The position numbers were made by a program, and so were the translations under genes. From Sipunculus nudus (Eukaryota; Annelida; Sipuncula; Golfingiida; Sipunculidae), in the NCBI GenBank assembly GCA_026874595.1, contig CM049307.1, positions 49,961,178-50,025,177 on the forward strand: 64,000 nucleotides of DNA. Reading direction: 5' to 3'. The first letter of the stretch is position 1, and every line of letters begins with the position of its first letter. The notes beneath the pieces were generated by a model. It was not told the origin of the DNA. It saw only the letters and a list, made by a program, of their open reading frames with translations, and ran no database searches. This document shows, in pieces, positions 7,134 through 40,300 of this stretch.

Positions 7134-10100
7134 TTATATACCCATACTCATCCCCATATTTTGCTGGCCTCTGCTTAAAATGTAAGCGATGTATTTTTGC
7201 CAGAAGGCGTCATTTCTTTGGAATAGGTTCTGTTTCATGTCGACCGTTGTCTTGGTGACATCGAGGTAGTTCAGCTGCTGACTGTTAGGTGTCGTGAATG
7301 TCGACCACGTGGTTGCGGTGTTGTTGCCGGGAGCGGGAACAGGAGATGGTGTAGGGTTCCTACGTAATAGATGTGTAAGGAAATTAATCTGCTCACAGTA
7401 TTAATTACATGGATTATCTGCGTTTTTGATATAAGGAATACAAGTCCTGAATAAAATGACTGTGTCGGAGACATATAAATGTTTTGTATATTAGTGTATT
7501 CAAAACCTATTCCCACCATGCAGACAGGCGGTTGCATGATTATACAGTAAATGATATTATGATAGCAAGAAAGCACTAACAGACCGCATACATCCGTGAA
7601 CATTCTGAATAAACAGGATACTTATCTAACTTTCATTTTTTGGCATGTGAAAGCGGGAAATATATTAATCCTAAAAGAGAGAAAGGTCTGTCACAGTTCT
7701 CTAATTCGATGATTTCATCCCGGGTCAGCTTTGCTCACCAGAACAAAGAGCGATCGCTATGGGGTTACACCTGCACACTGCAAGCGACAGAAATTGTCAC
7801 CCCGTTTTTAAATTTTCTCTGATAATTTTCTCTTTACTAATGATTTACTACAGGCTACCCCACAGGCAAAACGAAAAAAAAAAAATTGTCGCAATGGCAA
7901 GTAATCCTCAACTGATGCTAGTGGTAAGTAACCTTATTTTCGACCAAAATTTCTCAAAAATTAAATTGTTAGTTCCCTGCGCGTTACCTGAACTCTCTTT
8001 CTCATTACAAGATACCAACAGAAGAATAAATGGCGGCAATAACATTATACCCCCTAGCATACGAAATTTCGTTACATAGAACGATTTTAGTCAAACGTAT
8101 AAGACAATTTAAGTAAAACGACATTTGACAGTATTAGCTACATTAGTCGGTAGTATTGTTCCCTAATATTGTCTAGGACGTTACAAACAGCTTCGGAAAG
8201 AACATCCATATTAACGAACCCTGTTTTTGCGAAGTTTGACAGCAGGTCGAGCCAGTAACCGGCGTATTCTATATCCTCGTCTGTCCAAGGGATGAGGGCG
8301 AGTAAATCTAACTCCATGTCGTCAGCCACCGCATCTTCATTCAGAAGGAAGGGGTGACCAAACAGGTAAGGTACATCAGCGGCGTGAAAGGTACCTGAAC
8401 ATGAACACACGAACATCAGACATATCCAAACAGGTAAGGTACGTCAGCGGCGTGGAAGGTACCTGAACACGAACACACGGATATCAGACATAACCAAACA
8501 GGTAAGGTACGTCAGCGGCGTGAAAGGTACCTGAACATGAACACACGGACATCAGACATAACCAAACAGGTAAGGTACATCAGCGGCGTGGAAGGTACCT
8601 GAACATGAACACACGAACATCAGACATGACCAAACAGGTAAGGTACGTCAGCGACGTGGAAGGTACCTGAACATGAACACACGAACATCAGACATGACCA
8701 AACAGGTAAGGTACATCAGCGGCGTGGAAGGTACCTGAACATAAACACACGAACATCAGACATGACCAAACAGGTAAGGTACATCAGCGGCGTGGAAGGT
8801 ACCTGAACACGAACACACGGACATCAGACATAACCAAACAGGTAAGGTACGTCAGCGGCGTGGAAGGTACCTGAACACGAACACACGGACATCAGACATA
8901 ACCAAACAGGTAAGGTACGTCAGCGGCGTGGAAGGTACCTGAACATGAACACACGGACATCAGACATAACCAAACAGGTAAGGTACATAAGCGGCGTGGA
9001 AGGTACCTGAACATGAACACACGAACATCAGACATGACCAAACAGGTAAGGTACGTCAGCGGTGTGGAAGGTACCTGATCATGAACACATGAACATCAGA
9101 CAAAACCAAACAGATAAGGTACGTCAGCGGCGTGGAAGGTACCTGAACATGAACACACGAACATCAGACATGACCAAACAGGTAAGGTACGTCAGCGACG
9201 TGGAAGGTACCTGAACATGAACACACGGACATCAGACATAACCAAAGAGGTAAGGTACGTCAGCGGCGTGGAAGGTACCTGAACACGAACACACGAACAT
9301 CAGTCATGACCAAATATGTAAGGTACGTCAGCGGCGTGGAAGGTACCTGAACATGAACACACGGACATCAGACATTGCCAAACAGGTAAGGTACGTCAGC
9401 GGCGTGGAAGACACCTGAACATGAACACACGAACATCAGACAAGACCAAACAGGCAAGGTATACGCCAGCCCCGTAGAAGGTACCTGAACATGAACACAC
9501 GAACATCAGACATAACCAAACAATAAGGTACGTCAGCGGCGTGGAAGGTACCTGAACATGAACACACGAACATCAGACATAACCAAACAGGTAAGGTACA
9601 TCAGCGGCGTGAAAGGTACCTGAATATGAACACACGGACATCAGACATGACCAAACAGGTAAGGTACATCAGCGGCGTGAAAGGTACCTGAACATGAACA
9701 CATTAACACCAGACATGACAAAACAGGTAAGGTACGTCAGCGGCGTGGAAGGTACATGAACATGAACACACGAACATCAGACATGACCAAACAGGTAAGG
9801 TACGTCAGCGGCGTGGAAGGTAACTATGCCTAAACACTCTCTCCCACTTTCTGTTGAACGCCAGCTATAGTTTTATATCTTGCACTAATATGTGTTTACT
9901 TAGTTTTTATATCGGCAATATATATCATGTATCAGTGTTACGTTAAGAGCTGCAATTTTACCTGTCCACTCTGGAAGTATGGCATCCAAAATCGGACTTC
10001 TAAAGCCGAAGCGGTACTCGTACGTCGTAGCAAACTGGGACTGAAATTTTAGGCTGCCGTCCATGCTGCTGCCAAAAGCAACGTCATTCGCAGCCTGAAT

Positions 10101-13100
10101 AAAGTAAAATAACAACATATAATAAAACAGCAATTAATATAACACAACACGATTGTGGCTTCGAGTCCCATTCCGTCTAATTTTTCCACGGAGATCTCAG
10201 GCTAGGTCCCGTAATGACCTTTCCTTCCTCGATATCCCTGGCTAAGGTCGTATCCGTTAAGGTGTAACCTCTTCTCCCAGGAATGTATGGATATTGGTCA
10301 CTAGCGGTAGGCAAGAATAGAATGAATAACCTCATTAAGTTTTTTACTGCCCCCCCCCCATGCAGGGAGTTCGTGAATAAATAAGCCTATAAACTATATG
10401 ACTATTAACCTAACCTATACCTTAAAGTATAATACATTAAAATATAACATAACGTAACATAACATAATATGATATAATATAATAAAATAATAATTAAATA
10501 TAATAAAATATAATATATTATATTACATAATACAATAAAACAAAATGTAACGTTAATTATTGTATTGTGATATGATATAATATGACATAACAACCATGAA
10601 AAAAAATAGAATATAATATGAGAATATAATATAAAATAAAACAATAATAGAATATCAAAAGCGGTTCTAGGGGAGGGTTCGAGGGGTTCCCCCCGCCCCC
10701 ATTTAAGGGTTCAGACCAATCATTTTGCGGCCTGGACCCCCCCCCCCCCCCCCCGTCCGGACCTGGGGACCTTATTTAAGTTTTTTTTTTCATTCTTGGT
10801 CATTCTTGGTTGGACCCCTCCTTTTCCTGAATCCCGGATCCGCCCTGAATATGCATATAATTAATTACCTGTATCAGAGCGTCTCTGTTAGCGATGAGAT
10901 CGTCGGCGTTAGGCCAGCGTGTGTAGTGAGAGATGACCGCTCGATTGACCTCCTCAACTTTGTCCTCGCCGTAATTGATCAACGCGGCATAATTCAAGGC
11001 GCGAATAGCGTCTCTAAACAGGGTACGGTTCAGGCCATCTTCAACTTTAAAATGATATCATTATGATTAATCATTTCCTATACTTCACTGAAATATGAAT
11101 GGTTTGCGTTTAGCTTAACTTTTTTATTTCTTAACTAACTGTAATTTTATCATAGATGATTAACTACAGATAGGGGTATTTGTGTCATGTTCATATTTAT
11201 TTATAGGATTACCATAAAAAAAACAGGGGACATGAAAGGTTAATTTTGGAAAAGATAGAACTGAAATAGAATAACCAGTGCGCTCCATTTTACGCTTCAG
11301 CTATAAGGTTAGAGTGAGCTATTTCCGGGCCAGGTCAGTCAAGTTGTGTGGCGTCTTAATTAAACAGGAAGTGTTCAGAAATAAAATAAATAAATAAAAA
11401 TGGCTTTTCGTAAATGTAAGGAAGAAGTTTAAAAGTTGAACGCGTGTTTTTGATAAAACGCTTGATAGGTGGAACCACTTGTGGCTAGTTTAAGGAGCGG
11501 TACTGTAACTGGAAAATGAAATACACAAATTTTTTTTTTCTTTAATAAAAGCTCAAATGTAAGGAGTTGAGCTGGATTTTGATGTATTATTTAAATTAAC
11601 ATCAAACACTTGCCAAACACTATTTCCCAAGGGTCCTCAATACGTGCAGATGGTATAATACTGTTTATTGAGTTCCCTCTGACCTGTAGTACCGAAAAAA
11701 ACAACAGATGGCGCCACCTATCGAGGCAGTGTCTACTGAAAGCAAGACACATTTCGTTTTTAAGGATTTGAATGTGAGCTGCATCGTGTATAGAAAGAAA
11801 CGTGAAATGACAATGAATGAAAACTTTTGAATAAACACTCAGTTGTGACCTCTCCTGCTGTTCAATGTTTGATATTCCCTGTCGCCTCAAATTTAAAGTT
11901 CCATTTATAGGCGACAGGTAACGCCTAATGTGATGATGCTCACCAGGAATGAAGGCCACGCCGGCCTCGTCGTTTGTGTTCCCGGCCAGAACAGGAATGT
12001 CCTTGTTGAACTCTCCACGTTCACGGAGGTTGATGGGGGAGTCTGGCAGGAAGCCGCCCGCCCCATCCACAGTCGGGATAAATCCGAGAGTGAACTGGCC
12101 TGGCTGAAATAAAAATCAAACAACCAAACTGATTACTGGGCCATCAACCAGGTTATATTGACACTAATTCCATGGACAGATGACTACATTTCGAGACAGC
12201 CTTAAAAATATCTGTATAAACAGATGGCTTCATTTGATTGGTCAAATTCTCGATGCTGAGAATTTATAAAATACCCCCCTACCGCACTGAATTATGACGA
12301 AAGTGTCGAAAACCCCTGCGTTTTTGGAATAAAAAATCTCTTCATATGATTACCCTGCTCACGTCACATCGACTTTTTCAAACCTTATTCAAACAACCAC
12401 TGAAAACCAAAACACAAGCTTTTGCCCGGTTATCGCCCCGCGCGACTGATACGTTACTTACATAACGTTCCCAGCCAGTGCGCACAATATCTTCAGCCGT
12501 TTGGTTTCTCATACAATCCACCAGGAGGCGACTGTCGTCAACTGGACAGCCGAGTTGCAGCGCCACCTGGTTGGTGAGGTTACGAGCGATCTCAGGAGTG
12601 TGGTGGCTCCATATGGTCAAGTCGTTACCGCTGTGCATCATGGCCTGCTTAAACAGACCTGCAAATATGATAAAGCTTTAAAAATGAGGCAAATAAATAA
12701 ATTATGTAAATGTAACAGCATTCGGGGCTTTAATATTAATTAAGTTAGTCTCTCCGCCAGATGGCAACACATTATCTCAAGAACCGCTCCAGTGATTGCA
12801 GTGACATTTTACAGAAGATTGGTCCTTATGAAATGAAGTGTGCCTTCGACTGAAAGACCTGTTAGAAATCCAACATGCAGACATTTGGAGAGTAATTTGG
12901 ACATAACATTGGCTTCACTTAGAACCTTTGTGGACCAAATCATATTGCGTTTCATATATTATTGTAGGAAATAAAATTACTAATTTCCTGGTCAGTCTGC
13001 TTAAACCTTACTGATATTTAGATATCCACAGTATACACTCAAGGAACAAGATCATAAATCTATAGTTTTGTAGATAAAAGTGAGTAAGGTTTTTGAGACC

Positions 13101-14268
13101 AAGTCGCCCGTAGGAGGGGGATATAAATCTTTTTTACCTGCAGACATGGGAGAAACCAAGTGTAATCCGACTGAGGCCGCCCCGGCGCTATGGCCAAACA
13201 CTGTCACCCTGTCTGGGTCACCGCCAAAGTTAACAATGTTCTCCTGGACAAATCTCATCGACAGAATCTGGTCCATGACGCCGTAGTTCCCGGGGGCAAC
13301 GTCATCTCCGGTCGACAGGAAACCTATTTTATTCATATATATATAAGTAAAATACTACTATTGCTTCTACTACTGCTACTAATACTACTACTAATGATAT
13401 TACAAATAATAATAATAATAAGAGTAGGAATTAAAATAAAAGAATACGAATGGATGTAAATTAAATATATAATGAATAAATTATTCTTATACGTAAAAAA
13501 AATCATATTTAATTGTTTGGATAATAATTTATAAAAATTTAGAATTTTAAAACATGTATTGATATATTATTATGCTATCATGTGTTTGTACCAAATGTAC
13601 CAAATGTGTTTTGTTGACATTTACTTTAAACGGTTTGACTAAATGTATAGCATAACTGTCAATAAATAAAGAATACCAATATAATATGCGATACGTTTAC
13701 ATTAAACGTTTAAATCTTTTTACTTTCTATATTGTAGAAGGTTGCTAAAGAACGGTTAATGCTAACTAATGAATCTACATTTTAGACACCTGGGTGTTGA
13801 TCTCCTGTAATTAAATTATATCTGACCTGGATCGACAAGAAAAATAAAATTAAATTTAACAAAGAAATGTCTACATCCGCACTTGATGGGTAAATATAAA
13901 TATATGTTAAATATATATCTAAAATCTCACCAAGCTTGTCCAAACGATAGTTGGCTACTACAGACACGACTCCACGTCTGGCGAAGAAGTGTCCAGGGTA
14001 CTGGATGTTGGCGCCACCTCGATATGACCCGCCGTGGAAGAAAATCATCACAGGCAGACGACTTGTCGTGGTCACCGGCTACGGACAAGTACAAATGTAC
14101 GTAGTGACTAATTTTGTTTTATTTGATTAACATCTGGAAACAATGAACAGAATAATAAAGGGTTTAGTTACAATCTACAGGAGGATGGAGCGCAGACGCT
14201 ACCGAGCACCCCCCCCCCCCCCAATGACAAACAGAATAAAAGCGCCCCCCTCCCCCATCCCCATGTTT

Positions 14269-14319
<51 letters not shown>

Positions 14320-16265
14320 TTAGGTTGTATATTTCAGGCTATGAAAATTATAGATACTTGACTTATTAAAGTGAATGACAAGTACATTTGGGAGGGTAGG
14401 GAGAGGGTTGAAATAAAAAAAATGGGAAACGAAATATATACAGTGAATGATGTTACGGGGGGGGGGGGGGAGGGCTCTGGATACGCCACTGAGGCCCATT
14501 GGATTAATTGGCTGATATGAATTCATAAAACTGTTATTCTTTAACACAATGGCAGGAGTAACATCGATTTTTTATATTTTCCACAAAGCCACACAAATTT
14601 ACATATAACGTACTTTAAAGTAATAAGGAATAAGCGTGACGACATATGATACTTATTCGCGGCTTTTGCAAAGATAGTTTAGAGTATGATTGCAACTTTA
14701 AAGAGTTTAAGCAGACACATCTTGTTTTGGTATGATCGGCGCTTTGCTTTAGTAATATAATGGGTGGATGCAATATCTCAGACAAGTGTACCGGTAGTGC
14801 TAACAGGGTAGCTGGACTGGAAGGCCAGTGATCTAGCCGTTATGTCACAGGCCGATCAGGCGCTATGGTGAAAAGGAAGAATACGATTTGCCAGACGTTA
14901 AATCCTCGCTGTTTCTCAGTAGTAAACGTATATTGTCATATATACAAGATATTTAGGTAGAAAAAAGGGGACAACCCCTCTATATATATTTCTAAGTTTA
15001 TATATATATATAAAAGACTGAAAGGACTATGACAGATTTCATATTGCTGTTATCTTCTGCACAGCAAGATCGTATGTTTATGTATAGTTAACCTACATAT
15101 ATATAGTGTGTGATACAGTGTGACCATCTTTATAACTTACATATGGTGTAAAGATGTTGATGTTTAGACAATCTTCACTGAATCGATCCCAGACCGGATG
15201 CGTGGCTGACAAAACTCCCCCACTCTGAGGGCAAACTGGTCCAAGTCTTGCTGCCTGCCTCACTCCCGTCCATGCTTCCGGTTCCTGTGGCGGCTGTAAT
15301 AAACAGATCGGAAATGAGTGGTACTCGCGTGAATCTCGTTAAAAAACTAGGATTCATTAGGAGTGCAATATTTGACATTCAATAACTAGCACTGAATGAT
15401 TGGTGATATCGACGACTGGTCGTTTGTTCCTTGTTGTCTCCTGCAAGAGTGTGTTTATAAAAAATATCCCCGTGTGTGTTTGTGTGTGTGTTACGCAATC
15501 ATGAACGGAATCTCATGAAATTTTCAGAGAATTTCAGGAATTGGCCAATGAAGAAACGATTTTGGTGTGGAACCGGCACATGATCCGGATTCAGGAACGT
15601 CATGAAGGAATATTAACAAATGTGCAGTAACTTATGCACGAATGAACCTAGGAATATATGCCGAATAAGTGAATGGAGGCATTCGGGAGGTTTGCACTCT
15701 TTAGAATGCAGATTTCTAGTTATCGATTAACAGGGTTGTATTTTCATGTCACTGAGCTTAAACGATCATGTACGCACTTACGAATACAACATACACAGTG
15801 AAACCCGTCTTAAAGCTCACATTTCTAATGAGACAACGTGTCAGTCTATCAGGATCACTCTTGAGGGAACCGAAAACATTTAAATTTTGGCCAGTCCTAC
15901 GGGTGGCCTTATCACAGGTTTTACTTTATTTGAGATAAATTTCTCAAGTTCTCAAAACATAAGGAAGGCGAGACACAAAAAAAGAGACAATTCCTGATGA
16001 ATTGAATAGAATAAATTAGTCTTAACATGATTAATGACGAAGATTGCTGTTAATGTAATATAATAATATTTATTAGAAATATTACCTGGAATCTCAGTTC
16101 GCCGATCGGAGCCTTTCCATATGGAACACCAAGAAACGACAATACCTCGGAGCCGTCCGTCAGGTTCACACGGTGGCCTTCGATTTGTCCATATTTGGTA
16201 TTTACGATGGTGTTTCCCCTGACCTCAGCTGCAACAATCAGCGCCAACAAGCAGAAGAAAGCCAT
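7134..16265 (-). CDS. Gene A: secreted carboxylesterase/cholinesterase-family hydrolase, 10 exons
   Basis: Exons (minus strand, 5' to 3'): 16265-16086, 15293-15141, 14078-13931, 13323-13138, 12658-12462, 12103-11944, 11044-10869, 10094-9962, 8394-8220, 7359-7134. All junctions are GT-AG and the parts join into one frame of 577 codons plus TAA, close to the usual 530-600 residues of the COesterase family. Seen: a hydrophobic signal peptide after ATGs in good context (GCCATGG); oxyanion-hole HGG in exon 3; SEDCL block in exon 2; nucleophile serine in GHSAG (exon 4); acidic residue in NTNDEAG (exon 6); histidine in FHAADVPYLFG (exon 9). These predict a secreted serine esterase of unknown substrate. 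Histidine before the serine (GHSAG rather than GESAG) is a family variant. The exon 9 donor (GTTCGT) is weak. Intron 8 carries the 68-bp array. Exon boundaries were found by eye. Confidence 0.9.
8356..9831 (-). repeat. 68-bp minisatellite carrying copies of the exon 9 splice acceptor of gene A
   Basis: About 22 head-to-tail units of 68 bp run from inside exon 9 of gene A back through intron 8. Read on the minus strand, each unit contains TTCAG followed by GTACCTTCCACGCCGCTG and on to CTGTTTGG, that is the 3' splice site and the first roughly 40 coding bases of exon 9. This includes the codons of the catalytic-histidine motif HAADVPYLFG. After this block the intronic units run into GTCTGA. The unit nearest exon 9 is the one continuous with the rest of the exon; the farthest unit (near 9822) has lost its AG. 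Units differ by a few substitutions (GACATAACC or GACATGACC, one 66-67-bp unit). Confidence 0.95.
10396..10655. repeat. AT-rich low-complexity tract (ATAAC/ATATA)
   Basis: Degenerate repeats of ATAAC, ATATAAT and AATAT lie within intron 7 of gene A. The frames that cover it are compositional artefacts. Confidence 0.85.
10737..10754. repeat. Poly-C run, 18 bp
   Basis: A C homopolymer in intron 7 of gene A, about 115 bp past the donor of exon 7. Confidence 0.95.
14209..14470. repeat. Poly-C (14), (TA)n and poly-G (14) cluster
   Basis: Within intron 2 of gene A: C run at 14209-14222, alternating TA at about 14274-14317, G run at 14457-14470. All are non-coding. Confidence 0.95.
15456..15760 (+). 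repeat. Dispersed repeat, family R1, copy 1
   Basis: The block runs from a TGTGTGT stretch through ATGAACGGAATCTCATGAAA and ends near TTTAGAATGCAGATTTCTAG. It is clearly related to 31025-31310 and, over a shorter stretch, to 36115-36235. It is an unidentified interspersed repeat with no coding capacity and lies in intron 1 of gene A. Confidence 0.75.
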
Positions 16266-18059: not shown

Positions 18060-21000
18060 GTATGTAGGTTGTGCAACCTACCACAAATCCAGAAAGCTAT
18101 CCAAGTTGTATACACCTGCAAAATTTTAGGCAGAAAAGTCAAACCACTACATGTATATGAGCGATTTTTGCCCATGGCAGACAAACAGACAAACACTGTG
18201 CAAAAATCTTTGCAGGTAACCCCTCCAGTTTTGTGTATGATAAAGACCTATGTGAGATCTAAACACATGCACAATTTTGGCCCAATCGGTCAAATGGTTC
18301 CTGAGATATGAGCTTGGATGTGCCCAGCGTTAACAAGAATGCAGGTGGCGCCACCTGTCATAAAATCAAGAAAGCTGTCCACGATGTATAAACCTGCAAA
18401 ATTTTAGGCAGTTATGTCGAACCACTACAGAGAAATGAGTAATTTTAGGCCACGGCAGACTAACAGACAGACGCTGTGCAAACATTGTTACAGGTGGCGC
18501 CACCATTTTTTGTGTATGTTACAGAGCTATCAAAGGTCAAACCTGATCGGTCAAACGGTTCCCGAGATATAAGCTTGGATGTCATCAGCGTGAACGTGAA
18601 CGTAGGTGGCGCCACCTGTCATAAAATCAAGAACGCTATCCTGGATGTATACACATGACGAATTTCAGGTGAATTAATCAATTCACTGCAGAGATATGAG
18701 TGATTTTAACCCAAGGCAGATGAACAGATGGACACTGTGCAAACATGGTTACAGGTGGCGCCACCATTTTTTGTGTATGTTATAAAGCAATCCAAGGGCT
18801 ACATTTGTATCAATTTTATTTCCTGATCGGTCAAACGGTTCCCGAGATATGAGGGTTTATGAGTGGAAACAGACCCACAAATGGACACTGGATAGAGAGG
18901 AAAGGTCAGAGGTCAATGCAAATTGGTTAGGCACCAGTTCACATGTGACCCGATAATAGGTGTAAGTTTGGGAAAAATCGGTCCATTAGTCTCCGAGGAG
19001 CTCTCTGGAAACGAACGCCGCCGCGGCGGAGGAACTCGGTCAAAAACATAGTATCCGCTAAACTTCGTTTTGGCGGATACAAAAATACAGGTGGCTCCAC
19101 CAGTCTGCAGAAACTAATAAAAACACTTAATGGTCAATATCCATGCAAAAAATCATGGTGATCTCTGCATTAGTTGTTCAGATACTTCAGTTTTTGTATC
19201 AAATTGTCCATTATTCTGAGGGATACTTCGGAGTCCTATAGCTTGAAGGATATGGGTAACAGAGACCTAATTTCAAGTTTCCACAGGCACCTTTCATGGG
19301 CCTCCTTGCATGACAAGAATGAAGATTCTAGGTCCAGTTGTTGCGATTTGTACCCTGTTGACAGATAACCACATCTTTAAAGGTCTCAAAAAAAAAAAAA
19401 AAATTCGTAAAAATTTGAAAAAAAAAATAGAGGTGGCACACCCAGTCTGCAGAAACTGATGGAACAGCTCATGATCAATATGTATGCCGAAAATCATGAC
19501 CATCAGTGTTGTAGTTATTGAAATACTGCAGTTTTTTGTATCAAATTTTCCATTATTCTGGGGGGGGGGGGGGTATTTTGGACCCATACAGCTTAAAGAA
19601 TATGGGTAACAGAGACCTAATTTCAAGTTTCCATGGAGACTTTTCATGGGTCTCCCTGTGTGTCAAGAATGAAGATTCTTGGTCCAGTTTTTATGATTTG
19701 TGCCCTGTTAACAGATGTTCATATCTTTAAAGGTCTCAAAATACAGAAAAATTTCGTAAAAAAAACGAACAAATACAGGTGGTGCCACCAGTCTGCAGAA
19801 ACTTATGAAACACTCCATGATCAATATCCATGCAAACAATTCTGGTTATCTCTGTATTAGTTGTTCAGATACTTTAGCTTTTGTATCAAATTTTCCATTA
19901 TTCTGAGCTGTACTTTGGAGTGCCATAGCTCAAAGGATATGGGTAACAGAGACCAAATTTCAGGTTTCAATGGAGACTTATCATGGGTCTCCCTGTGTGT
20001 CAAGAACGAAGATTCTAGGTCCAGTCGTTACGATTTGTACCCCGTTGACAGATAACTACATCCTTAAAGGTCTCAGAAATGGAGAAAACAATTCGTGAAC
20101 ATTGAAAAATACAGGTGGCGCCACCAGTCTGCACAAACTGATGAAACATCTCATGATCAATATGTATGTCGAAAATCATGACCATCAGTGATGTAGTTAA
20201 TGAGATATTGAAGTTTTTGTATGAAATTTTTGACTATTCTGGGGGGTAATTTTGGGCCCCATAGCTCGAAGGATATGGGTAACAGAGACCTAATTTCTGG
20301 TTTCCATGGAGACTTTTCATAGGTCTCTCAGTGTGTCGAAAGTGAAGATTCAAGGTCCAGTCGTTACGATTTGTGCCACGCTAACAGATGACAGCATCCT
20401 CAAAGGTCTCAAAAATAGAGGAAAAAATCGTAAAAAATCAAACAGTACAGGTGGCGCCACCAGTCTGCAGGAACTGATCGAACATCTCATGATCAATATG
20501 TATGCCAAAAATGAAGACCATCAGTGATGTAGTTATTGAGATATTGAAGTTTTTGTATGAAATTTTTTACTATTCTGGGGGGTACTTTGGGGCCCCATAG
20601 CTCAAAGGATATGGGTAACAGAGACCTAATTTCTGGTTTCCAAGGAGATTTTTCATGGACCTCTCAGTGTGTCAAGAATTAAGATTCTAAGTCCAGTCTT
20701 TATGATTTGTGCCTTGTTAACAGATGTTCACATTTTTAAAGGTCTCAAAAATAGAGAAAAAAATCGTAAAAAAATCGAAAAATACAGGTGGCGCCACCAG
20801 TCTGCAGGAAGTGATGTAACATCTCATGATCAATATGTATACCAAAAATCATGACCATCAGTCAAGTAGTTAATGAGATATTGAAGTTTTTGTATGAAAT
20901 TTTTGACTTTTCTGGGGGGTACTTTGGGGCCACATAGCTCGAAGGATATGGGTAACAGAGACCTAATTTCTGGTTTCCAAGGAGATTTTTTATATACCTC

Positions 21001-21136
21001 TCAGAATCACAAGTTACAAGGTTCTAGGTCCAGCGGTTACGATTTGTGCCTGGTTAACGGACGGACAGACGGACAGACGGACGACGGACAAAGAGTGATC
21101 GCTATAGCTCAGATGACTTTCAGTCAGCTGAGCTAA
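18060..21136 (+). mobile_element. Non-autonomous element built of GTGGCGCCAC-cored tandem repeats, Helentron/pearl-like
   Basis: The left part (18060-18870) holds about three units of roughly 250 bp, each containing GGTGGCGCCACC followed by TGTCATAAAATCAAGAA or a variant. The right part (19080-21040) holds six units of about 335-345 bp, starting near 19087, 19430, 19776, 20112, 20447 and 20786. Each begins with a GTGGCGCCACC-type core followed by AGTCTGCAG. The right end has a tetranucleotide-like tract (ACGG/ACAG, about 21055-21090), then the inverted repeat AGCTCAG...CTGAGCT and a run of A. Tandem cores followed by a tetranucleotide tract and a terminal hairpin are typical of mollusc pearl-type elements (non-autonomous Helentrons); that assignment is inference. 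There is no coding capacity. Confidence 0.6.
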
Positions 21137-21506
21137 AAACCTTTCTTGGATATATTTTCCTAATCTCATGTGGGGCAATAACCCGCGCAACTCTGGTCGT
21201 AAACGCACCAGCCACAGGACCAGGCTTCAGTAACGGTCCAATCAAACCGAAGACTTTCCAAAAGATAACTAAAGTACCTGGTGATTCTGTTACAGCAAGA
21301 AGTTTACAGGGCTTATCAGCGGCATCTCTTTGTGCCTTAAAGCAGGGAGTTTTATGACCCCAGTCAGCAACATCCGACACGGCCAGACTCTCACTTGATA
21401 CTCCAGCCCTGTAAACTCCTTGGTTACAGGTATCTGTTTTATAATGCGCGGTATATTACATAACTTGGCATGTGCTAGGCATTCTGATTCGTGTTAAGCG
21501 CAGCAC

Positions 21507-22277
21507 TTGCTGAACTCAGCCATGGCAGAAAACATCGCCAATACTGCATCTACTGCATCTGTGAACCCTATGAGGGCAGCTTTGACAAGCCTGGACCCTG
21601 ATGCTCTTCTCACTGTGGGGTTATTAGCAGAGTTTTTGCAGCTGCATGCAGAATATTTAAATGATAAACTTGACGCTAAATTAGCTGAACAACAAAAGGT
21701 TATCCATGACCAGAGGAATGAAATAACACAGATCAAGGAACAGCTAAAATTCTGCGAAAATAAACTAGCACAGGTTAATTCAGAACTGCAATCCCTATAT
21801 AACGCTTTAGATGAACAGCAACAATATAGCCGACGAAACTCTGTGAGAGTGTTTGGTATCACCGAGACTCCAGATGAGAACTTGGACTTTAAAGTGCAGG
21901 AAACTTTAACAAGCTCACTGAAACTAAAACTAGAGGACAGTGATATATGCCGTATGCACCGTGTCGGCAAACCAGATAAAGCCAAGCCCCGTCCTGTGCT
22001 ACTTAAACTCACGAACCACAAGGCAAAAGTTAAAATACTGCGGTCGACAAAAGATCAGCGAAACGCAGGTAGTCTTTCGGGAATATCAGTGTCTGAAGAT
22101 TTGACCAAATTAAGAGCGAATCTCGCTTTCCACGGTCGTGAACCGAAACGTCGAACCAAAATAAAGGACACATGGACAGACGACGGCAAGATTTTTATAC
22201 GACTCCACAATGACAACATTAAAACAGTTACAACAAAAGAAGACTTGGCCTCACTCTTCCCGGACTATCAGGTTTAG
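21507..22277 (+). CDS. LINE ORF1, coiled-coil nucleic-acid-binding protein
   Basis: An intact frame of 256 codons; a second ATG (21522) follows five codons later in better context and may be the true start. A heptad-like stretch rich in K, E, Q and L (about residues 48-108) predicts a coiled coil. It is followed by QYSRRNSVRVFGI, an RRM-like start, and a basic C-terminal domain with HRVGKPD and a KPRPVLLKL strand. This layout matches ORF1 proteins of animal LINEs, which multimerise and bind element RNA. It lies 1.25 kb upstream of ORF2. It has no disabling lesion, unlike ORF2. Confidence 0.85.
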   Translation: MLNSAMAENIANTASTASVNPMRAALTSLDPDALLTVGLLAEFLQLHAEYLNDKLDAKLAEQQKVIHDQRNEITQIKEQLKFCENKLAQVNSELQSLYNALDEQQQYSRRNSVRVFGITETPDENLDFKVQETLTSSLKLKLEDSDICRMHRVGKPDKAKPRPVLLKLTNHKAKVKILRSTKDQRNAGSLSGISVSEDLTKLRANLAFHGREPKRRTKIKDTWTDDGKIFIRLHNDNIKTVTTKEDLASLFPDYQV

Positions 22278-23526
22278 ATTAGTGTTTTTGATTAACACTT
22301 TTTCACCATTTGATCTCGGTGCTAGATATGAATAATGTGTTTTCAGATAGTAATTTGTATATTTACAAATCCACCTACATAACTTTTTTTTAACAGGAAA
22401 GCTTCCAACCTTAAAAAAGCACAATTTTTCTTTTGTGTTTTCGCTTTCGCAGTCGGGTAGTTATGCGATTGTTGTTTACAAACTAAATCGATGCACATAG
22501 GTCTTGTGTCTCCAATCGCATAACAAGTTTCCAGTCAAAATAGTGATTGCATAACTGTAACGTCACGAAAGTGCATGCATTCAATCTCACACAACACGGG
22601 TTCCTGGAGTACAACGCTAGGGAGCGTACGGGATTCGAACGGTTACCGCTGCTGGTGTGAGTAAATCGTCTACACTTAAATATTTAAGTACCTCTCACAC
22701 CTGGTTTTCAGCACAGGGTTAATTAGTACACTGGTCGTCACCACACACCCGAAACACTGCTAACATGCTCTTTGGTATCTGGCCTAGGATTATATTTGAC
22801 TCTTGGGGTAGTACTATGGTAACCATTCATTTCGTCCAAGCCTGACCGGTACCAAAACTCGTGCGTCTGTCACATGATACATTCGCTCACTGTGTACTTT
22901 TCCGGTAGTACTGAGATAGTATTATTATTTCTATTTGTCATTTGTTCTTCAATAATGTGTAAGAGGTAAAAATTCTATTATTTTCATGAATTTTTTTCAT
23001 ATAGTTATGTTATATTTAGTGAGATACGAACAAGCTACAGTTCATTCACAAAGTTTCTTTTAAATTATCCAGAGAATATAACCCTGGAAAAATTTCAGGG
23101 TCTTTTGCACTTTTAAACTACATATATTGTAATATCACAATAGAAAACATAACCTGGAAAATATCCTGGGTCACATGCAGATTTAAACATTTGTAATACA
23201 AAGTGAACATCTGGACAGCCCATTACTCGACACCCTTTATAACATGTCATATTCATATTTGTTTGCATTTTTGTGTTACTGTGTAGTCCTTCGCCCGTCT
23301 TTTGTCTCGTCCATGATTGTTTTGTTTTGTTCATTAGGTTTTATGTCGTATTTACAAATGGTGTTATTTCACAACAGATCCGATCTTGGTAGTATCATCA
23401 GACTATGCTCATATATGGATAGTCAGGGTATAATAATGATTTTTTACATATATCCTGTTAAGAAAAGTTTTGACCGTGATGCATGTGAAACAATGACCTG
23501 GTACTTTAAAAGGACCGGTTTCTCAT

Positions 23527-26500
23527 ATGGGTGATTCTATAGTTCAGTATTGCGCTGCTATTGGTCTTTTCTACAACAAAACTTTAACATCACGTTTTGC
23601 AATGTGCAAGCAACTCAATGCAAACATATTAAGTAAAAGACATCTCATCGAACTTTACAAATTACTAATGTCAACTAGCATAGATGTCCTTCCTAACCCG
23701 GGGCCGCAAATAAATGTTTCACGGAATAAACATAATCTAAAGATGTGCCACATTAATGTGAGAAGTATATTGGCGGAGGGAAAACTGTCAGAACTTCAGC
23801 ATTTAACAATCACAGAAAATATGGATATTGTATGTGTTTCAGAAACATGGCTAGATGGTAGTATCCCGGATACCTCCGTTCCCTTACCCGGTTTTCATCT
23901 TGTTTTACGTAGAGATAGGAATAGGCATGGGGGTAGGGTAGCACTTTTTATAAGAGATCACCTCACATACTCTAGAAGTTACGATCTTGAGCAGCCAGAC
24001 ACTGAGTGTTTATGGGCAGAAATACACGTACGAAAACAACGAGTGATTATAGGGGTATATTACAGACCTCCAGGCCAGTCAAGCGAAGTTCGCAAATTAT
24101 TCTTAGATAAATTGACACAAAGTCTAAACAGTGCTCTAGCAAAAAATCCATACGCTGTGATTGTATATGGCGATTTCAATGACAGGTGTGTGAAGTGGAA
24201 TTCTAACCATGATGATAGTGAACTTGGCAATGAACTCTTAAATGTACTACAACAATTAGGACTACAGCAGCTTATTTCCGAACCAACAAGAGTAACAGAG
24301 AATAGTTCTAGCTTGCTTGATTTACTAATCACTGATTCGCCTGGACGTCTTACTAATGTTCACTTAATGTCACCGCTTTCAAATTGCGACCATGCTGTCA
24401 CGGCCTGGTCGGTTTTGCTCAAGGTGTATAAACCGGAATCATATGAACGTGAAATTTTTAAATATAACGAAACAATCTTTATCATGCTTGAAGAATGTCT
24501 TCAAAATGCTCCATGGGATACTTTATATGAAGTTTTTGATTCCGTAGACGACATTGCAGTATCAGTTTGTGATATAATTACGTATGCTATTAAACAATCT
24601 GTTCCATTAAAATCAGTAACCATTCGACCAACTGACAAACCGTGGATGAATGCAAACATAAGACGCATGATAAGACAAAGAAATAGGGCATGGAAAAGGT
24701 TTTAAAATAATAACCAGCCGGACCATAACGCGTCCTTTAAAAAGGCAAGAAATATGGTTGTATCCGAGATCAGAAAGCAAAAGAAAAGTTATTGGAATAA
24801 AATAAGTAATCAGCTAGACGTAGAGTATCATGATTCTAAGCTGTGGTGGAAAATCAGTCATGGCTTGCTGGGCACAAAAACACATTCCCCAATACCACCA
24901 TTGGAAGTGGATGAAGATATCATACATGACCCTACTGAAAAGGCTGAAGCTTTCAATAATTACTTTAGCAGTCAGGCCATCCTTCCCGAAGATGTCGATT
25001 CCACGCCGCTCCCACCTCTGAATAATATACAACATGATCTTTTGTTATCACTTCAACTAAATCCTACGTAAGTAGAACAGGTCATGAACAATCTTAAATT
25101 GGGCAAAGCCATAGATCCTGGTGGAATATGTAATCTCATTTTAAAAAAGATGTCTTACATACTTGCCACTCCGCTTTGCAAATTATTTAACAATTCATTG
25201 TTAACCGGAAAATATCCTTCTATATGGAAAACAGCTAATGTTATTCCCGTATTTAAAAAAGGAGACCGTTCTAGAATCCAAAATTATAGACCCATTTCGC
25301 TGTTAAATAATGTATCTAAAATATTCGAGAGGTTAGTCTATAATAAATGTTATGAATACTTCACTCGGCACAAAGTACTTATACCAATAAATTCTGCATA
25401 CATGAAAATAATAGTCCATTGTACCAGCTGATTGAACTTGTTAATATTATATATAGGGGATTTGATGAAGGTATGGATACAAGATTAATCTGCCTCGATG
25501 TATCCAAGGCCTTTGCAGTGTGGCACAGGGGCCTCCTCTTTAAATTGCAGCAAATGGCCATTTCAGGACAAATTCTGAAATGGTTCGGGTCCTATCTACA
25601 CGATCGATCACAGAGAGTTCTACTCCAGGGCCACAGATCAAACACTGTTCATATACAAGCAGGAGTTCCACAGGGCTCTATTCTCGGGCCGCTATTGTAT
25701 TTAGTTTATGTTTATGATATATCTTATGGTATCACAAACACTAAACGTATGTACGCTGACGATACTTGCTTGTACACTCAGATTAAATCATCTGTGGCCT
25801 CGGCCCAATCTCTAAAAAGTGACCTATTAAAATTAGAGGAATGGTCTTCACAATGGCACATTACATTCAATAGTACTAAGTCAAAAGTCATAACATTTTC
25901 AAGGAAATATCAAGAACAATTTCATCCCGCCCTTATATTAAATCAAACTGTTATATCTGAGGTAGAACAGTTATCTCATCTAGGAATACTGCTTTCTCAA
26001 GACTTGAGCTGGGGTGACCATATACGGCATCTTTGTACTAAAGCATCAAGACGAATAGGAATGCTTCAAAAATTCAAGTTCATTTTATCTAAAAAAGTCC
26101 TAGATAGACTGTATAAATCAATGGTGATTTCTGTCCTCGAATATGGGGCTATACTATTTAACAATTGTTCTGTAGTACAGGCGAACAATCTAGAAAGTGT
26201 TCAGCGCAAAGGCATGCTACTGTGCACTGGCGCAACAAGATGGTGCAGCAGCACACAACTGTTAAACGAGCTTGGTTGGCCCACATTGTCTGTACGTAGG
26301 AAAGTAAAAATTGTCACGACTTTCTATAAAATAATAAAGAACCTGGGTCCTCCTTATCTGATAAAGACATTATCCGGTTATAAATGCAAACAAGGCTCGT
26401 ATAACCTAAGAAATGCCAGCGAGTACAGAGTACCAGTATTCAGACTCCATGCCGGACAACATTCATTTATTCCTACGGCAGTTAAAATTTGGAATTTCTT

Positions 26501-26960
26501 ACCAGAAAAGGTGAAAACAATTACTTCTGCCACTGCATTTAAAAACGCACTGTGCGATATGTTTTATCCTAAAAAGCCCCCAAATTATTTCTTCAGTGGT
26601 ATACGACGTGATAATATCCTACACACGCGGTTACGCACTGACTGCAGCACCCTAAACAGTGCTCTGTTTAAGGTCAACTTAACTGAAAAGCCAACTTGTG
26701 AATGTGATCTCGCCGACGAAACTGTTGTTCATTATTTCTTGGACTGCCCACTTTATATTGAACAGAGACGCACACTTCTTGCTAGTTTGCAGGAATTTTG
26801 CTGTTTTGCATTGCCACATATAAATGAGAATTATTCTAGGAAATTTAAGTTAGAAATAGTTAGAATTTTACTTTGTGGCAGCAGCTCCCTGACTACTACA
26901 GATAATTTTAAACTCTTTAGTCACGTATACAGATACATAAGGAACACAAAACGATTTTGA
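23527..26960 (+). pseudogene. LINE ORF2: 2A-like motif, endonuclease and reverse transcriptase, disrupted
   Basis: The first segment, 23527-24705, carries a leader ending in DVLPNPGP (residues 53-60) and then an APE-type endonuclease. Its motifs are HINVRS, VSETWLDG, YRPPG, VYGDFND, and NCDHAV where SDH is usual. A TAA at 24703 and another at 25069 interrupt the same frame. Near 25403-25412 a one-base loss in an A-rich run shifts the frame. The remainder (to 26960) carries the reverse transcriptase: LDVSKAFAVWH (one residue shorter than the usual KAFDxVWH), GVPQGSILGPLL, and YADD at 25752-25763. It ends in a C-terminal CxC...HxxxxC cluster (CECDLADETVVHYFLDC). Three lesions plus the altered motif A indicate a dead copy. 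The ORF2 start is uncertain. Confidence 0.9.
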
Positions 26961-28439: not shown

Positions 28440-29945
28440 AAGAGATGTTACATACGGGTACTTTACATACTTTTACTTATAGGGATGTTGCATACTGGTA
28501 CTTTAAGGGATACTGGTATGTTAAGGGATGTTACATAATGGTACGTTAAGGGATTCTACATACTGGTTCATTAAGAGATGTTACATACTGGTACTTTAAA
28601 GGATGTTAAATACTTGTCCTTAAAAGGATGTTACATACTAGTCCTTAAAGGGATTTTACATACTGGTCTTTAAGGGGTGTAACATACTGGTACTTTAAGG
28701 GATGTTACATACAGGTACTTTAAGGGATGTTACATACTGGTACTTTAAGGGATGTTACATATTAGGACTTTAAGGGGTGTTACATACTGGTACTGTAAGA
28801 GATGTTAAATACTGGTCCTAAAAGGGATGTTACATACTAGTCCTTAAAGGGATTTTACATACTGGTCCTTTAAGGGATATAACATACTGGGACTATAAGA
28901 GATGTTACATACTGGTATTTTATGTATGTTAAATACTGGTCCTTAAAGGGATGTTACATACTAGTCCTTAAAGGGATTTTACATACTGGTCCTTTAAGGG
29001 ATGTAACATACTGGTACTATGAGGGATGTTACATACTGGTATTTTAAGGGATGTTACATATTGGTATTTTAAGGGATGTCACATACTTTTACTATCAGGG
29101 TTGTTAATACTGGTACTTTAAGGGGTGTTACAAACTAGTACTTTATGGGGTGTTACATACTGGTACGTTAAGGGATGTTACATTCTGGTTCATTAAGGGA
29201 TGTTACATACTGATACTTTAAGGGATGTTACATACTGGTTCTTAGAGGGATGTTACATACTGGTATTTTAAGGGATGTTACATATTGGTATTTTAAGGGA
29301 TGTCACATACTTTTACTATCAGGGATGTTACAAACTAGTACTTTAAGGGATGTTACATACTGCAATTTTAAGTGGTATTTCAAAATAGAACTTTAATAGG
29401 CGTTGCATACTTGTACTTATCGGGTTTTCCTTAGTTTTACCGTCAGGGAGGTAAATACTGGTACTTTAAGGGATGTTACATACTGGTTGTTTAAGGGATG
29501 TTAATTCGGGAACTTAAGTAATGTTACGTACTTGTTCTTAAAGGGATGTTACATTCTTGCACTTTAAGGGATGTGTACACTGGTTCTTTTAGGGAAGTTA
29601 CATACTGGTACTTTAAGGGATGTTTCATACTGGTACATAAGGGATGCTGCATACTAATTCCCAACGGATTTTGCATACTTTTACTTTCAGGGATGTACAT
29701 ACTGGTACTTTAAAGGATGTTACATACTGGTTGTTTAAGGGATGTTACATAATGGTACTTTAAGGGATGTTACCTACTGGTTGTTTATGGGATGTTACAT
29801 ACTGGTACTTTAAGGGATGTTACATACTGGTACTTTAAGGGATGTTACCTACTGGTTGTTTATGGGATGTTACATACTTGTACTTTAAGGGATGTTACCT
29901 ACTGGTTGTTTATGGGATATTACATACTGGTACTTTAAGGGATGC
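28440..29945. repeat. 25-bp minisatellite, about 60 imperfect units
   Basis: The unit core GGATGTTACATACTGGTACT is followed by TTAAG. Units vary (GGTCCTTAAAG, GGTTGTTTATG, GGTATTTTAAG), and blocks of variant units recur in order, for example around 28600-28700, 28810-28890 and 28935-29010. That suggests higher-order duplication. There is no conserved reading frame and no spacers, so this is not a CRISPR array. Confidence 0.95.
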
Positions 29946-31363: not shown

Positions 31364-34300
31364 TTAATACTTACGTGACAGAAGTTCCAGACCAGCCATA
31401 ACATTTTCCAGCATGTCGGTGAAGACCTCAAAGTCGAGATCACCAAAGCTATCAATGCCCATTGGCCAAATCAAATGCTGATAAGCTGTGGGCAAAATAA
31501 ATATTGCTTTTGCATACAAAAGGAATTCATGTACTTTATGTGACAATTTCATCCAACTCCCCTCACTCATCTACCCCCCCCCCCCCCCCGGGCTCTGCAA
31601 AACAGGCTATCGAATAAGGTCTATATAAGTAACTAAGTAACAAATAAATTAATATCAGGTGCAAATATGTATCATAGGACTAATATTGTGTCCAAAATTC
31701 AGCTTTTGAAAAGCAGCCATGTCGGAAAACTAGCGTCAACAGAAAATGCCAGAATAAAGAAAAACTGAAATTGATGGTTTTTGGATTTGATGAAAATAGA
31801 TGGGTCCACCCACAATTTTTTGCTCACACAAATATGAATACAGAAATATACTCCATAACCCTATAAGCCTTCCTATAAACCTACCTGGCTTACGGAGAGA
31901 GGCTTATTTAAGGTTACTACACCATATGCATAGTGAGTGTAAAAGAAGATTTACATTTGCAGTGAAGCTTACATACATGCATATACAAACATTTCAGCGT
32001 TTTCCTACAGGAAAGGTTCAATTGCTGTCAAAACTAACCACCTAATAATAAAAAGCTTTTATAGAAACGCTGATGAATATGCTTATGATTAATATGATGA
32101 TGATGATAATTATGATTTTCTTCGGGGTCAATGATCATATTTACTGGAATAAATTGTGAATTTTTTATTTTATATTTAAAGGGTAATCATGTAATAGTAC
32201 CCGAAATAAGCAATGTAAGGTACACGTATATCTTACAATCTTATCTCCGATATTTTACAATCAGACTCACGGCCTTCTCCTCCTTCTCCGTCCAGGATGA
32301 ACGGGGAGTAATCCTGCCACATGGCGTGTGCCTGCTGGCGCCAGCTGTCCTGCTGTTGGATCTGACCTTTACTGACGTTAAGGAACTGAAGCTCGTTATT
32401 AGTGAACGCGGGCCACGTGGTCGGACCAGTAATACCGGGACCGTCCACCGGGCTCGGTGTAGGATTTCTGAAAATAAATTAAAAATAACGGCGTACTCTG
32501 TGGTGGAACTGTCATTAAACAGCTGAAAGAATGATGGTTGTGTGAGTGTGCTGCACGGAGGAACACTTCCGGTGCGTCATTTCCGATTGTACTGCGCAGG
32601 CTTGTTACTTGGATTGGGTAGCCAATCAAAGCTGGTCTTTCAAGTGAAGGTTCGCGTTTAGTTTTATAAAATTACGCAATGGTCTGACCGCTTTGGCATT
32701 ACTTCCACTTACTATAAATGCTTTTATTTCTTTTCGCAAGAGAGACTGACAATATAAGGTCCGTGGCAGTTTTCTTTCTTTATTTATCAACTGACCCTCG
32801 ATTCAAAATAAAAAAAACAGACATGATGATAACTCTGATGATTAAAAACACGATGTGAACATTAATTTGGTCTCAAAATGAATAAATCTCAAGTCCATCT
32901 TTTGGCCTCATTGGTATTACTTTCAATATCACCAAAGGTCCAACAGAATATTTGTGTCCAGCACAATGCTGCCAGAAAGGTTTAATATTATTCATCTCAA
33001 ATGACGTCAGTACGAGGCAAACTGATCAGGGTGTGTGTATGTCACACGGTTCAGAGCAAGCTCTCTGTTGTATATAAGAAAACCCCTTCCAAGGATTTTA
33101 ATTACTTTTAATCAAGTATAGTTTAATCTCTGACAAGCCGTTATCTACTAATTTAATACAATCAAATAAAAAATGAAAATTCTTGTAGAATTCTTGCAGG
33201 TAATGTATTTCATATACTATGATTTTGTTATTAAAATGTCGATATGGAACGTGATGACACCCTCTTCTTTTTAATTATTATCAAATTCCTGAGGCCTAAA
33301 CTTGAAGACATACCCTGTTTTGGCGAAGTTAGTGAGTAGGTCCATCCAGTAGGCTGAGTATTCCAGGTCGTCCTGGGTCCAGGGGATGACGCTCATGAGG
33401 TCCATCTCAGTATCTTCAGCGACCTCTCTGTTCACACTCAGATGGGGATGACCGAAAATGTAGGGAATATCAGCAGCGTGGAACACACCTGGAATTAATT
33501 AAAGGGGCCCAATCACCTATCTGACCTTAAAAACTAAAGGCAATCCCTTGGACCTTTTATAAAATTAGACTGACTGGAAAACATGGATATCACCGCATAC
33601 AGGCTGCTTGTTTTCTTTATATCAACGTGTTTGTAATATGTGGTGGCCCGCTAAAACAACCAAAACAAATTCAACAAAGTCATCTGGCGGCAAATCGGAA
33701 AAGCCAGGACTTTGCAAACGGCGTCTTGCAAAACGTGATCTTTCTACCTCCGCATATAAGAAATCTACCATCTTAGGTTATATGTTTTCCCATTTGTCAA
33801 CAAAGCTGTGTTTACAATCACGGTTTTGATAAAAAAAAATAATACATCATTCACGGAGGCGTTATAAGAACTTTTCATAACCAGAATTACCATTAGATCA
33901 TTAATATATACACAGAAGAAGCCAGAAATCACATAAATTCTTTTTCAAAAAGTAGGTATATAGGCACCTTTAAGGTTTCAGGAGGGTAAGGGGACCCTCA
34001 GACCTAGGTTTAACATAGGCTACCCAAAGTGGTGAGCCTCTGAAAGAGGCTGCCAGTGCCCGACGCCTGCACCCACGAGGGTTTCACACCTCAATGCAAA
34101 GTTTCATATCAGATTTCCCAAGTAACATCTGACCTTTCCTTAACCGTAGAGAGCTCTCTTCTTGTATTTTTAACCTTCTTGGTCATTTGTACATTAGTTT
34201 TCAAGCATAATCCTCATCAACAATAATCGGTTCTTCATATACAATTTTTAATGTGTGACATTTAAAATATTCAAAACCTTTGGATAAACACATTTTTTTA

Positions 34301-37300: not shown

Positions 37301-40300
37301 TCTTGTTTGTGGGGCCATCCCGTGTATTGGAATATCGTAGCTGCCGTAAGCTGCTCGAGCCTCTCTGGAGGTTCAAGTGCCAGGGTGAGGAGAAGGGCTC
37401 CGTCAATCATGGTACGGAAGGTGGTCAGGTTTACTCCTTCTTCAACTGTACATGACAAAGCATAAGAACGGGGGGCATCAGAAAATGTTAATTATCCCAT
37501 GAAAGCCTCACCACAAAAATACCCATGTTTATGTTATTTGCCTTGAAACAATTCTTTTTCAATAAATTTTAAAGGACTTCATTACTCTCTTCACTCCATT
37601 TATATACCAACGCCGCCTTTACCAAAACTCCCTAAGCAGCAAAGTCATATTCTTGTGATTACGATTTTGCGCAGTATTATACCGCTTCTGCATATAAGCG
37701 ACACCTAGTGACCATTCAAGGGAACACATAACCTGGGAGCGAGAGGTTCGTTGCTCGTTGATTGTTTCCTACGCCAATGACAGGGAATTGATTACAAAAG
37801 TGAGTTGATAAGTACGATTTCCACTGCAGGGGACTGAAATGTAATTCTAGCTACTGTCTAACGTAAATGAGAAATATATAAAACATCTAAATTGTTACAA
37901 GTTTGAATACTAATTGGCGCTGTGAAGCAAATTACCGTAAATAACGATAATATATAATAAGATGCATTACCATGAATAAAATTATCGTATTTAGAAAATA
38001 TCCTACTTACACAGAAAGCTGATTTTGGAACAGAATCGAATTCAAAGTGATAGATATTTCACCTGAAATATTTCGATCAGATGATCAGATCTCCAGACCT
38101 TTCTAATGACACTACTGACACCTGTCTGCACACGCCAGAGGATCGTTAAGCACAGTGCTCTGTACTCCTTACGCAGTGGGTATACACTGCAAATGTTCCA
38201 TATTTATTTTGTTTTAATCGCTGCTAAATTTAGCACGATTTGCAGGGTTTTGCCATCAGACGCTGGACCAGGGCCAAGCATTGTAATTAAGTCCGATGAG
38301 AAAATTAAGGGTTAAAAACTTGGAATTCGATACACAATGCAGTGGGAAAAACGAAAGATATATAGGACACTAGAAAATGGGGACCCGACGGGTCCCATTG
38401 CAGAGGAAGGGAATATTGCCGCGTAGTGAGTCCCTTGACCCGAAAGGTAGCGACGTCTGGTGGTCGATATGAAACCAATTATTTATGTGTTTGTGGTAAT
38501 GGGCTAAGCCGAAGGTCAACAATGGCGAGGTGGTAAGCGCGACTTATCAACAGTTCTGTGATGTAATGCTGTCGTGAATTGAATTGTGTGCAAGTGGATC
38601 GGCCAATTGATGTGCATTCTGTGAGTTACGGCATGTGACTGACGCTGATAGCAAAACCGGCCCACTGTCATGGCCCGTTTTTGCTGACTTCTGAGACAAA
38701 CAAACATACAGGGCAATTTTAGTAGTTTAAAGATTGTATAACCACTGCGTAAGGCAAGTAAAAGGAATGTAAAAGTGTGTATGCCAGTAAGAATGGTCTA
38801 TTAAAAGGAAATGTCGTTTATTTTCAACTTAGTGCGTTCAACACCTCAGAATATTATGACGGGTGTAAATTTCCGTAGTATCAATATGTAATAGCAAATA
38901 AGTTAAATTAAAATATTTAAATTTGTTTCATTTTACACCTACTGTCTAGAAGGACGGGTCCAACCTCGTTGCTGGTCACTCCACTAATTAACGGGACTTT
39001 GTGGAACCTGTTCGCTCTGCGCATGTTGAATGGCTCGTCCGGTAGGAATCCACCGGACCCATCAACAACAGGAACGAAACCGAGGCTGAATCTACCGGGC
39101 TAAAACAAAATGGCAATTGTACTTTACTTGGCACCTAACCTCAACAGATTGTAATATCACTTTTGCTGACAGAAGTTTGTTTTGAATATTAAGAATATTT
39201 ATTATATATGTAGTTCTGAACAATAAATACTCGTTTTCAGAAGAACATTAACGTCCGTAAATGTCTCGAGATAATGTATTTGAGAAGACACATACGGTTA
39301 TGCTCGAATCCTTTGGCAGAGTATATATGTGTGAAAATACTATCTAGTCCAATTCATTCTAGGAGTCCGAGTCTTTTGGGAGCGCGAGTCAAGAAGAACG
39401 ATAAAATGAAACTTTGAGATTATTATGTGTATTGATATAAGTAAATTTAGTTAACCTTTGGTTTTCCTTGAATGTTTAATTAAATTTAGCTCTCGATGCA
39501 AAACTAAAGTTTGGTATATTTAAAGTGTATATATACAAACACACACACATATATAAATATAAAGGTAAATTAGGGGTCAACTGCACGTTAAATTACATCC
39601 TGTGTAGAATACGTAACGAGGTATGTACCTTGGTAGTTTCGTCGACTGAGTTGGTTATCTTTGTAGTTTCGTCGGTCATCTATGTTTATATTGTCCATAT
39701 TGAGGTCTACCTCTGGAGTTGATCACTTAGAGAACCACAATTTTATAGGTTGGACCAGGTTACATATACTCGGCTCACTTTAGCTTAATGAAATCATAAA
39801 TGCCTTGGCAAATGCAAGTGAACTCGGCTCGGCTCGATTTAAGTCTATATCTCGTCTAATGGCGCCGGTCTCTGCATCCATGAACTATTATTAATCACTT
39901 GCCTTATACCAATATCGACGTGCGACCTACGGCATGTGGATTTTAGTGTGTACGCAAATGACAGCACCGGTAACGCTTTTAGGACCACGGCAAAATTTTT
40001 AAATTACAGTAGGATTACAGGTCTTGTCCATATAATTCCTCCAATTAATGTTAAAGGCCTATCTTGAGCCGACAGGGACAAGAAGGCTGGATATTTTAGA
40101 CATATGTTAAGCTGAACAAACTTGTCAATGACAATGTGTCTTGTAATGTCTGGCAAAACCTTCAGCTCTCTGAGTTAACAAATGTTCAAAAGACCCTTTA
40201 TCAAGGAAGAAAGTATATTTTTTGTTACCAACATATAGGTTGATATTTGCTTGCACTGGGGACTTTGCCTTGACTGCACAGGGTTACACAAATTGTCTGT

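Follow-up and report, generated by a model that had tools for sequence, protein, structure and literature searches.

A minisatellite across the intron 8–exon 9 junction of a carboxylesterase-family gene of Sipunculus nudus, and similar arrays at splice junctions of its paralogs

Results

Gene A and its exon 9

A stretch of 64,000 nucleotides of Sipunculus nudus DNA (assembly GCA_026874595.1, contig CM049307.1, positions 49,961,178 to 50,025,177; hereafter the window) was analyzed. Gene A, a COesterase-family gene on its minus strand (7134..16265), was delineated by exon joins and an open frame, with exons 1–5 at 16265–16086, 15293–15141, 14078–13931, 13323–13138 and 12658–12462, and exons 6–10 at 12103–11944, 11044–10869, 10094–9962, 8394–8220 and 7359–7134. 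An earlier model of nine exons, from 16265 to 8138, gave when joined an open frame of 529 residues; this model, which reads through the exon 9 donor, was used for both the Pfam and the structure searches. It matched the Pfam family COesterase (PF00135) with an E value of 1.7e-124, and its best matches among solved structures were cholinesterases and neuroligins, the alignment to the solved cholinesterase 5hq3 taking in the motifs GHSAG and HAADVPYLFG, which we take to hold the catalytic serine and histidine, respectively. The COesterase domain and the presence of both motifs place gene A in the carboxylesterase family.

Exon 9 (175 nt, 8220..8394, minus strand), the end exon of the nine-exon model, proved to be internal. 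It is bounded by an acceptor AG at 8396–8395 and a donor GG/GTTCGT (slashes mark exon edges). Beyond it lies a conserved exon 10 (NPTPSPVPAPGNNT..., 7134..7359, minus strand), drawn as far as the first in-frame stop, with a provisional C-terminus. Exon 10 is present in 18 of the 20 esterase exon-9 loci described below, gene A among them, and was not seen in the DNA examined for L014 and L020. In gene A, the join between exons 9 and 10 keeps the frame open through residue 577. The exon 9 donor is weak in gene A; paralog A2 of the window has GTATGT.

Two further genes of the family, with similar exon borders, lie at 32293–48394 (minus strand) and from 52167 to the window end (plus strand); the latter runs beyond the window and has its exon 9 at L013. 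Intron 8 of the second esterase gene contains a minisatellite of 81 copies of 14 bp (window 34523–35669), on which long open frames look like repeat artefacts. Additional arrays lie away from exons at 19081–21058 (336 bp, 5.8 copies) and 28463–29944 (25 bp, 60 copies), and frames at 21498–26960 (plus strand) resemble, by eye, the endonuclease-like and reverse-transcriptase-like parts of a non-LTR retrotransposon.

A 68-bp array carrying the exon 9 acceptor

Intron 8 of gene A (1567 nt, 8395..9961, minus strand) contains a minisatellite of 22 units of 68 bp (8355..9822, minus strand), each comprising about 27 nt of the intron end and about 41 nt of the exon 9 start. TRF reported it at 8355–9822 with period 68, 21.6 copies, 92% matches and a score of 2456, that is, head-to-tail units within the range of roughly 10–100 bp that defines a minisatellite. 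Unit by unit, 22 exon-start copies were found, spaced over 21 steps by 68 bp (19 steps), 67 bp (one) and 70 bp (one). The 22nd copy is the native splice site and the other 21 are extra copies within intron 8. From first to last exon-start copy the distance is 1429 nt, and with a single unit the intron would measure 138 nt. The unit spans the intron–exon boundary and its source is identifiable, as expected of a tandem duplication across that boundary. A TCTGAT motif about 25 nt ahead of the AG is presumably branch-point-like. Searched against its own assembly, the unit gave 22 matches among the best candidates scored, all within this array.

Unit alignment showed the junction AG in place in 21 of the 22 units, and AG/GT in 20. 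Upstream units 3–21 (8463..9687, minus strand) have AG/GT at each junction, with exon-start bases at 9687, 9619, 9551, 9484, 9414 and 9346 and thereafter every 68 bp to 8462. At the upstream edge of the array (9688..9850, minus strand), unit 1 has AG/TT and a diverged intron part, and unit 2 has lost the AG (CATG). Only the last copy, at 8394, continues into the complete exon 9. The initial annotation had described about 22 units of 68 bp with the exon 9 acceptor and about 40 coding bases, forming some 20 near-identical acceptors of which the last alone enters the full exon, and both points were borne out. It had also placed the HAADVPYLFG codons in each unit, which holds for 14 of the 22; the motif is altered in units 2, 5, 6, 8, 10, 12, 13 and 18. 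On the plus (antisense) strand of window 8355–9822, the unit carries a strong donor-like motif, CAG/GTAAGG (U1 duplex -11.5).

Consequences of using upstream copies

Over positions -27 to +41, the native site is identical to the 21 upstream units at 47–65 of 68 positions, and at 60 or more in 18 of them. Pyrimidine content is 0.60 for the native acceptor and on average 0.58 for the upstream units. The native acceptor of exon 9 is without any local distinguishing feature. RNA structure masking the upstream copies was considered as a discriminator and rejected: the predicted folding of four stretches was no stronger than that of shuffled sequences (z 0.58, -0.85, 0.64 and 0.02), and the acceptor was predicted to be mostly paired in native and upstream units alike, so that modeled folding does not single out the native site.

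The joined transcript was translated for each of the 21 upstream units. All 20 units having the AG lead to an early stop, and 18 of these yield a 459-residue product that ends two residues past YLFG, its stop codon lying in the unit that follows; HAADVPYLFG is unaltered in 13 of those 18. The other predicted products have 461 (unit 2, which has no AG), 482 (unit 5) and 473 residues (unit 6). By position, the early stop lies well over 50 nt ahead of the exon 9–10 junction, 195 nt in the nearest case. Nonsense-mediated decay is expected of transcripts with a stop that far ahead of an exon junction and, since exon 10 follows exon 9, mRNAs of gene A that use an upstream copy should be substrates of this pathway. 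The idea that the upstream copies serve to make a shortened, active enzyme was dropped after exon 10 of gene A had come to light. The gene A units gave no sign for or against selection: on average, 0.81 units deviate in an intron column and 1.12 in an exon column.

Recurrence at exon 9 of paralogs

Querying the genome with the peptide of exon 9 yielded 39 matches, made up of 20 esterase exon-9 loci (L009–L028, gene A included), 15 gene A units and four weak matches (E at least 4.6). For each of the 20 loci, its own acceptor together with the first part of its exon then served as the query. Upstream acceptor copies were found at seven: gene A (22 units of 68 bp), L011 and L012 (17 and 11 units of about 114 bp), and L016, L020, L019 and L017 (32, 4, 3 and 2 units of about 95–100 bp), the arrays of L019 and L017 being degenerate. 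No upstream copy was found at the other 13 loci, in some of which intron 8 was partly covered; L015, counted among them, gave only a 22-base match (E 0.019). Relatives without the duplication thus exist and include L010 and L013. In exon 9 of L019, the codon at the histidine position is CAG, as compared with CAC in neighbouring paralogs, and the enzyme may be inactive. In yet another paralog (L044, contig C2, 84.36 Mb), an 8.9-kb array of 149 copies of 60 bp lies upstream of exon 9, and its unit gave no match to the exon edge.

With so many equal competitors upstream of a native exon whose donor is weak, the array might be damaging gene A, the upstream units capturing splicing and the gene heading to a pseudogene. 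This seems improbable given that all exons of gene A are in open frame with a good family match, and that matching exons are retained in the paralogs with long arrays.

Loci L011 and L012

L011 and L012 are gene copies 3.65 Mb apart in inverted orientation on one contig (C2, near 0.06 and 3.71 Mb). They are identical over the 145 bp ahead of the array and over 587 bp from the exon 9 start, and match at 565 of 700 positions farther upstream; despite identical near flanks, L011 has 17 units and L012 has 11. On their other side (L050/L051), one 5.3-kb stretch is 99.4% identical and the adjoining 4.5 kb, with a further array in it, is 95.2% identical. Exons 5–8 of L012 were located 10–20 kb upstream (L049) and none were found for L011 in the corresponding stretch examined (L048), so that L011 may be a partial gene. 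The two loci may be misplaced alleles or haplotypes from the assembly, or true, recent inverted duplicates; both are possible. An AG stands exactly at the junction in only 1 of 16 upstream copies of L011 and 1 of 10 of L012, indicating that decoys can decay in these genes, and both native sites include a stretch missing from the upstream copies.

That copies were multiplied in assembly would be a concern for the arrays in general, since repeat lengths come from the assembly and not from reads, and since L011 and L012, in inverted, partly near-identical stretches of one contig, could be a haplotype artefact. Such an origin is highly improbable for an array whose single units carry as many as 8 changes relative to the consensus, in an assembly of 153 contigs for 1.43 Gb, with other junctions carrying arrays of other units.

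Arrays at other splice junctions

Arrays were also found at other exons and at donors. L011 has an 85-bp array of the exon 10 end and its donor, with 13 donor copies including the native one and GTACG in 11 of the 13, and L012 has an exon 10 donor array of the same kind. The L012 gene further carries a 97-bp array of the exon 6 start and its acceptor, with 15 units including the native one, all with the AG. In the L023 gene (L041), a 27-bp array of the exon 2 end and donor comprises nine donor-like copies, the native one included, six of them carrying CACGTAAGT and one CAAGTAAGT. Throughout the arrays examined, it is the outermost copy that is native; it is continuous with the full exon and lies beside the partner splice site of that exon. 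Upstream acceptors have not been purged, given that the AG is kept in 20/21 upstream units of gene A, 30/31 of L016 and 14/14 of the exon-6 array. For the latter, the AG is kept in 15/15 units, but 25 of 92 columns are invariant, and the chance that two given columns are both invariant is about 0.07, so that this array gave no sign for or against selection.

The AG/GT motif, present in 20/22 gene A units, could make each unit act as an acceptor and then as a donor, an upstream join being re-spliced downstream until the last unit is reached. The pairing of CAG/GTACCT with U1 (-7.1 kcal/mol) falls within the range of the eight donors of introns 1–8 (-5.1 to -8.3 kcal/mol), and tandem dual-specific sites are used in human UBC (PMC10809524). 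GTACCT nevertheless departs from the usual donor, which has A at position 4 and G at position 5, and AG/GT is absent from the units of L016 (0/32) and of the exon-6 array (0/15); re-splicing hence cannot be the general reason for tolerance, and we give it little credence for gene A.

The number of units might instead set the amount of enzyme, each extra unit diverting splicing to early-stop transcripts. The upstream sites equal the native one by local sequence, 18 of the 21 upstream units share the 459-residue end point, and L011 and L012 differ in unit number (17 vs 11) between identical near flanks, as would suit such control. It appears unlikely, however, as the units bear no sign of selection, and the arrays at other exons and at donors point to a general repeat process.

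Chance and common origin

Arrays with a period of 20 or more and three or more copies were collected from the 20 loci and eight gene-body stretches and grouped by hand into origins. In 6 of 13 origins the unit crosses an exon edge, where a density of one junction per 641 bp of DNA outside arrays predicts 1.02 (P about 1.2e-4); if gene A is left out, the count is 5/12 against 0.94 expected (P about 9e-4). Both counts are exploratory, the loci being centred on exon 9 and the neighbours of two of the eight gene bodies having been picked after arrays were seen. Random placement of whole arrays gave no junction excess, with 5/15 touching a junction against a mean of 8.8 by chance, in a run where the L011/L012 arrays were not scored as touching. 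The seed-based count is preferred, as selection would remove placements that destroy exons. Three 5-kb P450 stretches, a small control and the only outside one, contained no array. With an exploratory count, a random placement without excess and a small control, what is claimed here is recurrence of junction arrays and not a proven hotspot.

As to a shared origin, similarity among the intron portions of units from gene A, L011 and the cluster was not above that of shuffled sequences (p 0.13 to 1.0); between L016 and L020 it was (0/1000 shuffles). In a tree of 19 rows, from which L014 (exon 9 only) was left out, L010/L013, which lack arrays, stand next to L011/L012, which have them (97/93), and gene A falls outside these four (89/82). 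That the arrays arose separately is a simpler reading than one shared origin; the alternative would be loss of the array in L010/L013.

Discussion

Four points come directly from the sequence: how the gene A array is built, what each upstream copy would encode, that junction arrays recur, and that unit number differs between gene copies. The explanation we favor, with reasonable rather than strong confidence, is that a minisatellite was seeded on a splice junction and expanded into the intron, with the copy next to the partner site being used, the others spliced away, and the whole mostly tolerated. Consistent with this, the unit spans the junction, the last copy alone enters exon 9 and the frame of gene A is open throughout. 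A segment running from the last part of intron 8 into the first part of exon 9 would have been duplicated in tandem and then expanded to 22 copies. Under exon definition, the copy nearest an exon's partner site remains the one used; the copy joined to the rest of exon 9 would likewise stay in use as the acceptor nearest the exon's own donor, and the 21 upstream copies would be taken out as intron. For gene A this use of exon definition is less sure, the exon 9 donor being weak. A transcript using an upstream copy would meet an in-frame stop ahead of the exon 9–10 junction and probably undergo nonsense-mediated decay, and the array would then be a mostly tolerated, presumably near-neutral intron expansion, at some cost in mis-spliced RNA. 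The same process would have struck further junctions of the esterase paralogs in this genome, at acceptors as well as donors.

The arrays provide natural genes in which splicing has a choice among 2 to 32 closely similar acceptors or from 9 to 13 copies of a donor, and paralogs lacking arrays can serve as controls. How splicing settles on the correct site when its competitors are equivalent becomes a directly testable question. The presence of arrays at several junctions within a single gene family further suggests a possible route of intron growth, by minisatellites seeded on the edges of exons. A broader proposal, that the seeding process recurs in the genome at acceptors and donors alike, lengthens introns by building ladders of up to about 30 equivalent sites, and lets unit number set the share of productive esterase mRNA through decay of decoy-spliced transcripts, is put forward tentatively and is rather unlikely to hold as a whole.

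NAGNAG acceptors lie 3 nt apart and have one 3' splice site in common; gene A resembles them in offering several acceptors to one exon, and differs in a spacing of 67–70 nt and in repeating the entire 3' splice site. The initial annotation had regarded an array of this size as unrecognised. Large splice-site arrays are in print (IFI6; boundary repeats of human duplicated genes, PMC2812944; and UBC, PMC10809524); a literature search covering few subscription papers returned no long acceptor array, nor a gene family with several junctions affected. Intronic repeats go with splicing changes in ABCA7 (PMC5954066) and, for CeRep25B, in C. elegans (PMC4039745). In IFI6, a minisatellite supplies multiple donors (Turri 1995, as described in citing papers); IFI6 and gene A are alike in that the units contain splice sites, which are donors in the former and acceptors in the latter. 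In a potato RdRp gene, a new spliced intron arose from one tandem duplication across an intron–exon boundary (PMC4974935), and the duplicated segment, like the gene A unit with its putative branch site, comprises branch site, pyrimidine tract, acceptor and exon start, with a single duplication there and long arrays in the esterase genes. In human UBC, tandem AG/GT units with dual-specific sites are spliced out in unit multiples (PMC10809524); gene A likewise has AG/GT per tandem unit, but UBC units are in frame and coding, whereas those of gene A, at 68 bp, are out of frame and stop-bearing. Closest in setting are the tandem repeats at exon–intron boundaries of human segmental duplications, which changed splicing (PMC2812944). 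Both cases involve minisatellites over exon edges in duplicated gene families; the human ones have units of about 30 bp, 4 repeats on average, new introns or exons and RNA support, whereas the esterase arrays have units of 27–114 bp and up to 32 copies, and are described from genomic DNA only.
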